DNA from: an uncultured Acidobacteriaceae bacterium
Lineage (GTDB): Bacteria > Acidobacteriota > Terriglobia > Terriglobales > Acidobacteriaceae
Length of the DNA stretch: 64,000 bases
Direction: 5' to 3'
Assembly: GCA_903904755.1 (NCBI GenBank)
Contig: CAIVDV010000009.1
Span: 124,001 to 188,000 of the forward strand
Positions 40,420 to 44,158 of this stretch are shown one piece after another. The notes beneath the pieces are model-generated. The model was not told the origin of the DNA. It worked only from the letters and a program-made list of their open reading frames with translations, and made no database searches. Position numbers and translations under genes: made by a program. How positions within the stretch are numbered: the stretch's first letter is position 1; the number at the start of each line of letters is the position of its first letter.

Positions 40420-42534
40420 CTACGCCCGCAGCCTTCCGCCAACCTGCGAAACCGCCTGCAGCACCGCCGCGGAGTACGCCTGCAGCTCCTCGTCGCGCAG
40501 TGTCCTGTCCGTCGCCTGGAAGGTTGCGCCCAGCAGCAGCGAATACTCGCCCGCAGCCAGCCCGGCAACCGCCTTCCCCTCCCGTGCCACTTCCCTCACC
40601 CGCCAGTCAATCAGCTCGGGAATCCCCGTCTGCCCCAGCACCTCATCCAGTTGCGCCCAGTGCGCCGCCGGCGGCAGCACCAGCGAGAAATCCCGCCGCA
40701 CCGGCTGGAAGCGCGAAAGCTCCCGCACCGCCGGCCGCGCCAGCGCCTGCCGGTACAGCCGCTCCGCATACAGCTCCGCCATATACACCGGCGCCTTCAT
40801 CTTCCGCTCCGCAGCCAGCCGCGGATGCAGTTGCCCCAGCCAGCCCACCGTCGAGCCATCCACCACCACCCGCGCCGACCGGTACGGATGCAGCCACTGC
40901 GGCGTAATCCCCGCCTCTGCTGGGAACGTATCAAAATACACGCTCTTCGCCTGGAACCGTGCGACAATCTGCTCCACCACGCCCTTCAAGTCGTAGAAGT
41001 CCAGCACCCGCGGCGCCTGGTGCGGCCCCACCTGCCCCACACTCCCCGTCAACCCAATCGCCAGCGCCGGCCGCTCTTCCACCTTCTCCGTCGAGCCGGA
41101 AAACACCGCCCCCAGCTCAAATAGCCGCACATCCGCCACATCGCGGTTCAGGTTCCCCGCCACCATCGTCACCATCCCCGGCACCAGAGACGCCCGCATC
41201 ACCCCCGCTTCCTCGCTCAGCGGATTCCCCAGCGGAACCACCAGCCCCGGCTGCGGCGCGCACAACCCCGCATCCGCCGCCGAGCAGAAGGTGCTTGAAA
41301 TCGCCTCATGGAACCCCGCCGCCCGCAACGTCGCCCGCAGCACCCCATCCGCCTCCGCATGGGGCAAATGCCTTACCGCCCCCGCAAATGCCGGCAGTGT
41401 ATTCGCAAATCGGTTATACCCGTAAACCCGCGCCACTTCCTCAATCAGGTCAATCTCGCGGTCCAGGTCCAGCCGCCAGCTCGGCAGCGTTACCTGCCAC
41501 TGCCCTTCCCCGTCGGCGCTCAACCCGCAACCCAGCGAGCTCAGAATCCCCTCAACCGCCGCCGCCGTAATCCCTTCGGCCTCCAGCGTAGTCCCCAGTA
41601 TCCGCTGCACCTGCTTCAGCGCCAGCAACACCGGCTGCCGCGCAGCCGTCCGCGCCTGCTGCGCCGCCACCTGCACATCCACCAGCTCGCCCTCAATCTC
41701 CCCGCCACTCTCCAAAATGATGCTCACCACCAGCGCCGAAGCCAGCGGCCCTGCGTTGAAATCCGCTCCCCGTTCAAACCTGTGGCTCGCATCCGTATGC
41801 AGCCCATGCCGCCGCGCCGTCCGCCGCACCGCAACCGGGTCAAACCACGCCGCCTCCACCAGCACATTCCTGGTCTCCTGCGTAATCATCGACTCCCAAC
41901 CACCCATCACCCCGGCCAGCGCCAGCGGCTTCACATGGTCCGCCACAATCAGGTCCTCCGGGTCCAGCACCCGCTCCACCCCATCCAGCGTCTTCAGCGT
42001 CTCGCCCTTCCGCGCCCGCCGCACCACAATCCCGCCCACCAGCTTGTCCAGGTCAAACGTGTGCGTCGGCTGCCCCATCGCCAGCCAGGCATAATTCGAG
42101 GCATCCACCGCATTCGAAATCTGCTTCTGCTCCAGCAGCCGGAACAGCCCAGCCATCTGCGAGCTCAGCATCCCGGCCCCCGCCGGCCCAATCGTCACCC
42201 CCCGCAGCACCCGCGCCGTAAACCGCCCGCACGCATCCGTCGCCTCAATCTCCACCGGGAACCCCGCCCCGTCCTTCGCCTCCGGCAGCGGAAACCCCAG
42301 CGGCGCCAGCGGAAGCCCATAAATCGTCGCCGCCTCCCGCGCCACTCCATAGTGGTTCATCGCATCCACACGGTTCGTCGTAATGTCCATCTCAAAGAGC
42401 GACCCATTCCCCGCCCCAAGGTCAAACACGCCTTCCACAGCAATGCCGCGCAGCGTCAGGTCTTCTGCCAGCGTCGCATCATCCACAGTCAGCGTTGGCA
42501 AATATTGCCGCAGCCATTTCGTAAGAATCTTCAT
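40420..42534 (-). CDS. pheT: Phenylalanyl-tRNA synthetase beta subunit lacking the N-terminal OB domain
   Basis: 704 residues, against about 790-800 in most bacteria. The N-terminal MKILTKWLRQYLP..LTVDDATLAEDLTLRGIAVEGV runs directly, after about 40 residues, into LFEMDITTNRVDAMNHYGVAREAA (quoted in part), the start of the B3/B4 part. The usual tRNA-binding OB domain (about 100 residues, normally near 40-150) is absent, without any frame break. B3/B4, B5 (WRLDLDREIDLIEEVARVYGY) and the C-terminal FDX-ACB domain (RFQPVRRDFSLVLP to the end) are complete. With PheS it charges tRNA-Phe; B3/B4 edits mischarged Tyr. Separated from pheS by an inverted-repeat element. Confidence 0.95.
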   Translation of the reverse strand: MKILTKWLRQYLPTLTVDDATLAEDLTLRGIAVEGVFDLGAGNGSLFEMDITTNRVDAMNHYGVAREAATIYGLPLAPLGFPLPEAKDGAGFPVEIEATDACGRFTARVLRGVTIGPAGAGMLSSQMAGLFRLLEQKQISNAVDASNYAWLAMGQPTHTFDLDKLVGGIVVRRARKGETLKTLDGVERVLDPEDLIVADHVKPLALAGVMGGWESMITQETRNVLVEAAWFDPVAVRRTARRHGLHTDASHRFERGADFNAGPLASALVVSIILESGGEIEGELVDVQVAAQQARTAARQPVLLALKQVQRILGTTLEAEGITAAAVEGILSSLGCGLSADGEGQWQVTLPSWRLDLDREIDLIEEVARVYGYNRFANTLPAFAGAVRHLPHAEADGVLRATLRAAGFHEAISSTFCSAADAGLCAPQPGLVVPLGNPLSEEAGVMRASLVPGMVTMVAGNLNRDVADVRLFELGAVFSGSTEKVEERPALAIGLTGSVGQVGPHQAPRVLDFYDLKGVVEQIVARFQAKSVYFDTFPAEAGITPQWLHPYRSARVVVDGSTVGWLGQLHPRLAAERKMKAPVYMAELYAERLYRQALARPAVRELSRFQPVRRDFSLVLPPAAHWAQLDEVLGQTGIPELIDWRVREVAREGKAVAGLAAGEYSLLLGATFQATDRTLRDEELQAYSAAVLQAVSQVGGRLRA

Positions 42535-42550
42535 CAGGTTGCCTTTAGCG

Positions 42551-42589
42551 GGTTAGCGCGCTTCGCGCGTAGCAAGTTAGCAGGTTTGC
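42551..42589 (+). repeat. Left 39-bp arm of inverted repeat
   Basis: Begins GGTTAGCGCGCTTCGCGCGT and continues AGCAAGTTAGCAGGTTTGC. It is an inverted copy of 42996-43034 with 35 of 39 positions identical. Contains its own palindrome GCGCGCTTCGCGCG. Confidence 0.9.
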
Positions 42590-42604
42590 TGGATTTGTGG
42601 TGAA

Positions 42605-42970
42605 TCAGGCGCTGCTCAAAACGCCCAGCAGGCCGCTCGTAAGCTTTGCGACTTCCGTGGCCAAATCAATGAGAACCTGGCTGGATTCCGCGCTGATAAA
42701 CTGCAGGCTCGCTGCCAGTTCGGTTTGGGTTTGCAGTTCGTTCAGCGCGCCCCTGGCTGCGCTGAGTGATTTCCGAAAATCGACATCGGTCAGGCGTCCA
42801 TGGCCGTCGGCAATGTGGCTTGGAACCGCAGTAGAGGACCGGCGCATCTGCATTCTCAAGCCAAATGTCTCCGAATTGGGAAAATCCTCAGTCCGCAGGT
42901 ACACTTCACGCGCAAGTTCCATGGCCTTCTGCCAGGCAACCAAATCGCGATAATGTCTCGTCCTCGCCAC
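42605..42970 (-). CDS. Four helix bundle protein (23S rRNA intervening-sequence type)
   Basis: 121 residues. Matches the family once described from 23S rRNA intervening sequences: YRDLVAWQKAMELAREVYLR at the start, FPNSETFGLRMQMRRSSTAV, PSHIADGHGRLTDVDFRKSL, ARGALNELQTQTELAASLQF and a final amphipathic helix. Members form pentameric four-helix bundles of unknown function and are often scattered in many genome copies. Here the gene sits inside a 39-bp inverted-repeat unit between pheS and pheT and on their strand, so it could be cotranscribed with them. Confidence 0.93.
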   Translation of the reverse strand: MARTRHYRDLVAWQKAMELAREVYLRTEDFPNSETFGLRMQMRRSSTAVPSHIADGHGRLTDVDFRKSLSAARGALNELQTQTELAASLQFISAESSQVLIDLATEVAKLTSGLLGVLSSA

Positions 42971-42995
42971 AGCTGCCCATCCTTTCGCAAATGCC

Positions 42996-43034
42996 GCTAA
43001 CTTGCTGACTTGCTACGCGCGCAGCGCGCTAACC
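42996..43034 (-). repeat. Right 39-bp arm of inverted repeat
   Basis: Reads GCTAACTTGCTGACTTGCTA then CGCGCGCAGCGCGCTAACC on the plus strand. Its reverse complement differs from the left arm at four positions. The internal GCTGACTTGCT recurs at 45928-45938. Confidence 0.9.
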
Positions 43035-43075
43035 TGCGAAACGCTAACCCCACACAAAACCCTATCGACCCGCCT

Positions 43076-44158
43076 TCACGCAAATTGGTCTAAGAATCTC
43101 ACATCCCCCTGGTAAAACTGCCCAATATCACTCACCCCGTACTTCATCATCGCTATCCGCTCCACGCCCATCCCAAACGCAAACCCGGAAATCTCCTTCG
43201 GGTCATACGCCGGCTGCTTCTCCGCCGCAAACGCAAACACCGCCGGGTCCACCATCCCGCAGCCCAGCAGCTCAATCCACCCGCTCTGCTTGCACTTCCG
43301 GCAACCCTTCCCCGCACAGAAAATGCAGCTAATCTGCACATCCGCGCTCGGCTCCGTAAACGGGAAAAAGCTCGGGAAAAACCGCGTCTTCACCGCCGAG
43401 CCAAACAGCGCCTTCATCGCATGGTCCAGCGTCCCCTTCAGGTCGCTGAAGGTAATGTTCCGGTCCACGCACAGCCCCTCCACCTGGTGAAACACCGGCG
43501 AGTGCGTCGCATCCGCCGCATCGTTCCGGTGCACCTTGCCCGGAATCACAATCCGTATCGGCGGAGCCATCTGCTCCATCGTCCGCATCTGCACCGGGCT
43601 GGTATGCGTCCGCAGCAGCAACCGGTCCCGCAGCGGCCGCCGCTCCTGCCCGGCAATCACCAGCGTGTCCTGCGTATCCCGCGCCGGGTGCCCTGGCGGA
43701 AAATTCATGCTCTCGAAGTTGTAAAAGTCGGTCTCCACCTCCGGCCCCACACCCACTGAGTAGCCCAGCCCCGCAAAAATCCCAATCAGCTCGTTCATCG
43801 TCCGCGTAATCGGGTGCTCCGCCCCCGTCAGCCGTCGCGTCCCCGGCAGCGTAATGTCCAGCGCCTCGGCTGCCAAAGCCTCATTGGAAGGCCCCGCCCC
43901 GGCCGCATCCTCCAGCAAACCCTCCACCAGCGTCTTCAGCGCGTTGAATCGCTGCCCCAGCGTCTTCTTCGCCTCCAACGGAGCCGTCTTCAGCCACGCG
44001 TCTCCCAGTTGCTTCAGCCGGCCCTGCTTGCGGCCCAGCCACTCCAGGCGAAAATTCTCCACCGCCTCCGGACTGGCAAGCCAGGCCGCAGCACGCCGCG
44101 CCTCATCCTCAAGCGCCGCAAAAGAAGCATCCAATGTCTGTTCGTCAAAGTTCATCAT
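43076..44158 (-). CDS. pheS: Phenylalanyl-tRNA synthetase alpha subunit
   Basis: 360 residues from ATG 44158 (a second ATG at 44155). N-terminal coiled coil (about 1-85), then the class II catalytic core: GTRRLTGAEHPITRTMNELI, GYSVGVGPEVETDFYNFESM, PPGHPARDTQDT, LLRTHTSPVQMRTME (motif 2 region VHRNDAADATHSPVFHQVEG) and GFAFGMGVERIAMMKYG (motif 3). A Cys cluster CIFCAGKGCRKCKQSGW occupies the usual spot between motifs 2 and 3 as in other PheS. The frame is open upstream for 44 residues without homology. No clear Shine-Dalgarno. Divergent from the DpnI-like gene. Confidence 0.97.
   Translation of the reverse strand: MMNFDEQTLDASFAALEDEARRAAAWLASPEAVENFRLEWLGRKQGRLKQLGDAWLKTAPLEAKKTLGQRFNALKTLVEGLLEDAAGAGPSNEALAAEALDITLPGTRRLTGAEHPITRTMNELIGIFAGLGYSVGVGPEVETDFYNFESMNFPPGHPARDTQDTLVIAGQERRPLRDRLLLRTHTSPVQMRTMEQMAPPIRIVIPGKVHRNDAADATHSPVFHQVEGLCVDRNITFSDLKGTLDHAMKALFGSAVKTRFFPSFFPFTEPSADVQISCIFCAGKGCRKCKQSGWIELLGCGMVDPAVFAFAAEKQPAYDPKEISGFAFGMGVERIAMMKYGVSDIGQFYQGDVRFLDQFA

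Follow-up and report, generated by a model that had tools for sequence, protein, structure and literature searches.

Background

On contig C9 of the genome of an uncultured Acidobacteriaceae bacterium (4.22 Mb, 83 contigs), the genes pheS and pheT are separated by a 484-bp unit whose sole gene codes for a four-helix-bundle protein of the family PF05635 (23S_rRNA_IVP), designated IVP below. The coordinates given are those of the window, the whole 64,000-nucleotide stretch of this contig that was analyzed. The locus raises the question of whether so small a unit is a mobile element and, if so, what role the gene and the repeats that enclose it might play in its spread. We know of no explanation for the role of PF05635 proteins outside rRNA or for the way in which they spread.

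The initial annotation had proposed a mobile cassette delimited by 39-bp terminal repeats. The reading favored here, with a probability of roughly 0.55, is that the unit is one of a widespread group of fold-back elements in which an IVP gene lies between inverted arrays of mostly 7-8-bp tandem repeats, and that the IVP protein recognizes these repeats and aids their spread.

The cassette at the pheS-pheT junction

The IVP gene (42605-42970, 121 aa) is on the minus strand and both host genes, pheS upstream (43076-44155) and pheT downstream (40420-42534), are open and co-directional with it. The pheS start at 44155 was chosen at MNFDEQ, while the listed open reading frame extends to 44290. The arm downstream of the IVP gene (42541-42597, plus strand) is an array of GTTAGC-type octamers with a small GC-rich hairpin core, and the arm upstream of the gene (42988-43044, minus strand) is an inverted copy of it. 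Direct comparison of their best-matching parts, 42551-42589 and the reverse complement of 42996-43034, gave 35 identities in 39 positions, and a repeat search lengthened the arms to 57 nt at 84%. A gapped test for inverted repeats gave the cassette a score of 34.5, while the highest scores were 14.5 for dinucleotide-shuffled flank pairs (n=1460, from the 73-locus family set described below) and 13 for mock sites (n=130), so the 39-bp repeats of the initial annotation are real.

The description of the enclosed reading frame as a lone gene of the 23S intervening sequence (IVS) type was likewise borne out. The match to PF05635 had an E value of 1.8e-30 and 105.7 bits, compared to a cut-off of 33.8, and TIGR02436, "four helix bundle protein", was matched with an E value of 1.2e-26. 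A Pfam scan (E<=0.001) returned only PF05635 and a weak bAvd match, and no reverse transcriptase was found among the open reading frames of the cassette. The closest solved relative, PDB 2gsc (XCC0516 of Xanthomonas campestris), has five chains in the entry and is a pentamer. The related Avd proteins bind nucleic acid. No catalytic site is known to us in IVP, and no transposition event, circular intermediate or catalytic residue was seen in the loci examined.

The usual adjacency of pheS and pheT, assumed in the initial annotation, could be verified within the genus, where 15 genomes were searched and the junction was readable in 13. Six junctions had the clean 4-bp ATGA overlap of the two genes and thus provided the empty site that had been sought in close relatives; five carried an IVP gene, one (G157) had 33 bp, and one (G159) had 46 bp with a hairpin. 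A target-site duplication had also been sought, and no clear one was found at the junctions compared; the edges of the cassette, GTGA and ATGA, are sequences that the stop and start codons also require.

Genome G159 is the sister of the cassette-bearing G102 (support 100/99), and its hairpin (L086) joins the outer parts of G102-type arms, which fits the expected outcome of a deletion of the gene and the inner arms. On the favored reading the unit could decay in this way to gene-less hairpins or single arrays. The five IVP proteins at this junction had values of 0.54-0.72 among themselves as compared to 0.35-0.50 with seven other IVP proteins of the genus, fragments L320-L322 being left out of the comparison, and this mutual resemblance is compatible both with long residence at the site and with repeated arrivals. 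On a PheS+PheT tree the insert label needs four changes, at least three of them forced by well-supported branches, which excludes a single gain with no loss. To judge from these sequences, one gene lineage may have reached pheS-pheT early and been lost two or more times, or may have arrived repeatedly.

Two of the five copies were without clear paired arms (L316, score 10.0; L317, 7.5). At the junction in genome G152 (L094 and L317), the upstream arm is missing and the start codon of the IVP gene shares ATGA with the stop of pheS, which gives the impression that the operon has absorbed the gene. The copy in the genome under study may itself be old, and its mobility may have been lost.

Three IVP genes with three different arms

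A profile search found three PF05635 genes in this genome. Inverted repeats surround every one of them, built in each case from a different short tandem unit: the GTTAGC-type octamers with the small hairpin core at pheS-pheT, TCAGAGA heptamers at a second gene, whose neighbors we take from their sequence to be ilvB and ilvN, and AGTCCCT(T/C) octamers at a third, situated between what appear from sequence to be lysS and a YmdB-like gene. In the lysS-side cassette one arm (L009:1870-2155) has expanded, its AGTCCCT(T/C) octamers covering about 285 bp, and the other has about four units.

The expectation that every sister gene would carry the same 39-bp arms consequently failed, since the two other IVP genes had very different ones. 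A single 39-bp arm shared by IVP cassettes was rejected, and the 39-bp arm is therefore not a terminal repeat of the family; nor do the copies have in common the one terminal inverted repeat by which IS elements and MITEs are recognized. What stood of the mobile-cassette proposal is a compact gene with inverted arms that is missing at the same junction in relatives and leaves the host genes intact. The idea survives in another form because most of the IVP genes examined lie between inverted arms, although the arm sequences are unrelated to one another, and because the repeats scattered in a genome tend to match its own cassettes.

Occurrence of the layout

PF05635 was present in 111 of 150 sampled genomes of the family. 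The 73 family loci comprised the three genes described above, the 30 best search matches and 40 picked from the matches listed; the search matches were the best-scoring ones, one per genome, so that the percentages describe strong family members. Inverted arms exceeding the shuffle maximum were found at 62 of these 73 loci. They were also present at 22 of 24 loci taken elsewhere in the phylum, outside the family, and at 60 of 80 in a set of named genomes that spans many phyla, among them Planctomycetota, Bacteroidota, Chloroflexota, Clostridia and Proteobacteria. When the three sets were pooled and identical domains removed, 142 of 175 loci had inverted arms and 14 had direct ones, 13 of these 14 coming from the named-genome set; 33 IVP loci were at or below the inverted-arm threshold. 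Granulicella mallensis (L295) was among the loci with arms.

A control gene family, PhdYeFM, had arms at only 1 of 28 loci (two placements each; two loci of an initial 30 were truncated and left out). Another control, in which the arm of one locus was compared with that of a second, left only 4 of 33 loci above the 99th percentile because unrelated cassettes have unit types in common, and shuffles, mock sites and the control gene family were therefore used instead.

The best period of the arm pairs was 7 bp in 75 of 91 cases and 8 bp in 10. Three loci (L017, L032 and L064) have a longer compound arm unit, CGGTCAGC and AAGAAG-like pieces, in place of heptads, and the flanks of L017 are not homologous to those of L032 or L064. 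IVP relatives were found in 30 plasmid records, mostly from Nostocales; of the 12 cyanobacterial copies read, six had arms, one of them barely, and the other six were without clear paired arms.

The layout of an IVP gene between inverted arms is well supported.

The gene and its arms as one unit, probably of DNA

Arm similarity tracked protein similarity over 91 loci (Mantel rho 0.19, 0 of 2000 permutations). Between pairs of loci without flank homology, over the flank lengths compared, arms were shared by 7 of 10 pairs with a protein ratio above 0.7, by 45 of 212 at 0.6-0.7, by 27 of 977 at 0.5-0.6 and by 9 of 2808 below 0.5; these pairs have members in common and are not independent. The sharing of arms by related proteins in unrelated flanks indicates that gene and arms reached different sites together. 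At one site (L021/L023) two cassettes with the same arms and a protein ratio of 0.94 are reversed relative to each other. Gene and arms would then constitute one unit that has reached unrelated sites and may lie flipped at a single one.

By a crude longest-ORF rule 107 of 129 cassettes were on the strand of the upstream gene, an orientation that would also be expected if the arms paired in the transcript, RNase III cut the cassette from the operon mRNA and so left the host genes undisturbed, and any spread went through RNA. The Coxiella 23S IVS, with complementary termini, RNase III cutting and heptamers just upstream of the S23p ORF (PMC4990558), is a precedent for such processing. This RNA interpretation is nevertheless quite improbable. 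When arm mismatches were scored for G-U on the sense strand, the counts were 87/81 at 71 loci and 163/187 (p 0.22) at the 142 arm-bearing loci, so that there was no G-U enrichment, and the idea that the arms are kept as an RNA stem was rejected on the negative wobble test in both sets. A cassette on a Nostoc plasmid lies antisense between nrdB and nrdA, the pheS-pheT cassette has no reverse transcriptase ORF, and the flipped pair at L021/L023 is equally difficult to reconcile with an RNA route. The lack of G-U bias together with the reversed cassette favors a DNA unit.

The location in operons, and the polarity of the arms, in which G exceeded C on the sense strand of the upstream arm in 108 cassettes as compared to 29 with the opposite bias, might suggest instead that the arms are ordinary mRNA or terminator-like control sequences, selected because they serve to express the IVP gene or the operon. 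This is very unlikely, given that distant cassettes do not share a conserved arm sequence, that stray copies of the arms occur at other loci, and that 6 of the 13 pheS-pheT junctions have no insert.

Scattered repeats without the gene

In the genome under study the three arm types matched 29 sites away from the cassettes (E<=1e-4), distributed as 4, 11 and 14. The 14 belong to the pheS-pheT type and lack an IVP gene. The initial annotation had held that arms occurring widely apart from the gene would count against a cassette, and for the 39-bp arm type this is what was found. The same three queries gave 11 matches in 14 other genomes of the genus: seven in G151, two in G150 and one each in G102 and G160. 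The match in G160 is its own pheS-pheT cassette. All seven in G151 are of the ilvBN type, and one is an arm of its lone IVP gene, which occupies the same site as the ilvBN copy described above and has arms of that type. G150 has no IVP match, yet contains two weak arm matches.

The association was assessed more broadly by comparing one arm from each of 13 cassettes (that of L024 being only 21 nt) with the 13 genomes that carry them. Among the 150 of 209 matches listed, 20 were at the cassette, 90 were elsewhere in the genome of the arm itself, compared to a permutation mean of 10, and 40 were to the other twelve arms. Among these listed matches, at least one own-arm match away from the cassette was present in 8 of 13 genomes, in contrast to 13 of 156 other cells, and 5 of 13 arms had no match elsewhere in their own genome. 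The 13 genomes hold further IVP genes, so that arms of other cassettes may account for some of the matches, both on and off the diagonal. The copies that were read took the form of one-way arrays and of inverted pairs with short spacers and no intervening gene (L363, L364, L365, L367, L369 and L372). The link between IVP cassettes and scattered repeats is supported in most of the cases tested.

Arrays were also counted in approximately 100 kb from each of 16 genomes, at known contig coordinates away from listed IVP places. Eight genomes with 0-1 IVP gene had one 7/8-bp array in about 792 kb, compared to 26 in 800 kb for eight genomes with 7-11 IVP genes, while the whole sample of 16 contained a single control array of 10/11 bp. 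The number of arrays rose with IVP number (Spearman 0.67, p 0.004; Mann-Whitney p 0.0025), although the genomes are related and the points are not independent. The IVP-rich genomes were uneven, with no array in the 100 kb from G075 and one each in G135 and G028. Double counting of 7- and 8-bp arrays and arms of unlisted cassettes were considered as sources of artefact and dismissed: after merging of overlapping arrays and scanning for IVP-like ORFs the counts were still 1 and 26 (p 0.0017), and none of the 26 arrays was within 400 bp of an IVP-like ORF.

The gene-less copies bear on the view that the IVP gene is a passenger, merely carried between inverted copies of repeats that spread by slippage, host recombination or a transposase acting in trans. 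The 14 gene-less sites of the pheS-pheT arm type agree with this view, as do the five of 13 cassettes without matching stray copies among the matches listed. The right arm of the pheS-pheT cassette is 98% identical over 41 bp to a gene-less copy on contig C26 and is thus closer to this stray copy than to its partner (35/39), which indicates no special homogenization inside the cassette. A transposase that might act in trans is also at hand, since Y1-type transposases (PF01797) occur in 36 of 41 family genomes, including the one studied here. However, the PF01797 genes of the family have inverted flanks of their own, REP-like hairpins of a different grammar, at 21 of 25 loci above a chosen score of 16, five of the 30 loci (L189-L218) being too short. 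The RAYT transposase was accordingly rejected as the owner of the IVP arms. The hairpins that flank PF01797 genes are often of several kinds in series. A passenger gene would also leave several observations unaccounted for: the arms are inverted rather than direct at most loci, they follow the protein lineage, and 7/8-bp arrays are almost missing from the regions sampled in genomes that have at most one IVP gene. The passenger interpretation is therefore judged unlikely, and the fold-back element in which IVP takes part in the spread of its repeats is preferred.

A parallel family and CRISPR neighbors

The PDDEXK_3 / GxxExxY family (PF13366) was found in 41 of 80 family genomes, with no match in the genome under study. 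GxxExxY genes had inverted 8-10-bp repeats, mostly of the ACC-RCNGAG type, at 27 of 30 loci (L102-L131), and 6 of the 30 also scored as direct repeats. These cassettes parallel the IVP layout with an unrelated protein and a different class of motif.

On two plasmids an armed IVP gene with heptads lies between cas6 and cas4: Anabaena sp. 90 pANA02 (L374:1483-1851) and Pseudanabaena galeata pPg_01 (L384:1489-1848). Associations of IVP with CRISPR-cas may consequently be insertions, and this suggests that some operon IVP genes, those at CRISPR-cas loci included, are inserted sequences and not working parts.

Proposed mechanism and implications

Movement of the unit as DNA, binding of the arms by the protein and a part for the protein in their spread are all inferred. 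The arms would likely function at the level of DNA by folding into a hairpin or cruciform. The IVP protein would recognize its own repeats and, together with host replication or repair enzymes, could help them to spread or persist, a partnership modeled on that of RAYT transposases and REP sequences.

A broader proposal, which is possible and put forward tentatively, is that IVP and heptad repeats form a pan-bacterial selfish class comparable to RAYT/REP but lacking a known transposase, in which a pentameric four-helix bundle would recognize short tandem repeats and drive their copying. The rRNA intervening sequences, the cyanobacterial STRR, and the GGGAATC repeats of Xanthomonas and TAACTGA repeats of Beggiatoaceae would then be traces of the class, and PDDEXK_3 would be a second protein that had independently taken up this way of life.

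The recurrent layout of a gene plus arms, with private and often scattered repeats, gives PF05635 a definable element and connects rRNA intervening sequences to a genome-wide phenomenon. It also offers an origin for the heptamer repeats of cyanobacteria, Xanthomonas and Beggiatoaceae, and predicts that such a repeat family will be accompanied, in its own genome or one recently related to it, by an IVP gene flanked by inverted copies of the repeat. Taken together, the observations suggest that a family of tiny elements, mobile now or in the past, has been overlooked.

Comparison with known systems

Long inverted termini built of short tandem repeats are characteristic of the eukaryotic fold-back (FB) transposons, which differ from the cassette in their hosts and proteins. 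The cyanobacterial STRR are 7-bp tandem arrays and are mostly intergenic. The study of Rehm et al. (2015, PMC4692102) describes heptamer arrays of Xanthomonas and Nostoc that are mostly intergenic and show no general association with mobile elements. In the same study, 70 and 75 close pairs of Xanthomonas heptamers are reported in convergent orientation, in agreement with the usual polarity of IVP arms. The TAACTGA repeats of Beggiatoaceae are likewise described in PMC4679880 as mostly intergenic 7-bp tandem arrays. A mention of an IVP gene was not found in the accessible text of either paper, and titles and abstracts of the open-access literature searched contained no description of IVP genes in repeat arms outside rRNA.

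PF05635 resembles Avd, the accessory protein of diversity-generating retroelements (DGRs), according to PMC10053308. The DGR Avd profiles both scored below their cut-offs against the IVP gene (PF22296, 22.8 bits, cut-off 40; NF033474, 23.8 bits, cut-off 80), and no DGR parts were recognized within the 484-bp unit.

The RAYT/REP system is similar in design. REPINs, RAYTs and TIR-flanked tyrosine transposases, some of them in Acidobacteria, are described in PMC3116915 and PMC3733652. As in the cassettes, the gene lies between inverted repeats, copies of the repeats are scattered in the genome, often as inverted pairs, and repeats and protein diverge together. However, RAYT is a Y1 tyrosine transposase, whereas the cassette protein is a four-helix bundle with no Y1 match in the Pfam scan, and REP repeats are GTAG-tagged hairpins, whereas the IVP arms are mostly tandem heptad arrays.

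The 23S IVS of Coxiella and Leptospira shares with the cassette both the PF05635 / S23p protein and the placement of the ORF within complementary ends. The ends and heptamers of the Coxiella IVS are already known: PMC4990558 gives 28-bp complementary termini, RNase III cutting and tandem GACAGAT heptamers just upstream of the S23p ORF, and notes that mobility, or an origin as leftovers of transposition, has long been suspected for rRNA IVSs. The 23S IVS sits inside a helix of 23S rRNA, whereas the cassette described here lies between pheS and pheT, as one of several IVP units in its genome that stand between protein genes, have differing arms and are matched by repeats elsewhere in the genome. 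The 23S-rRNA IVS is likely to be one instance of the same gene-plus-arms layout.
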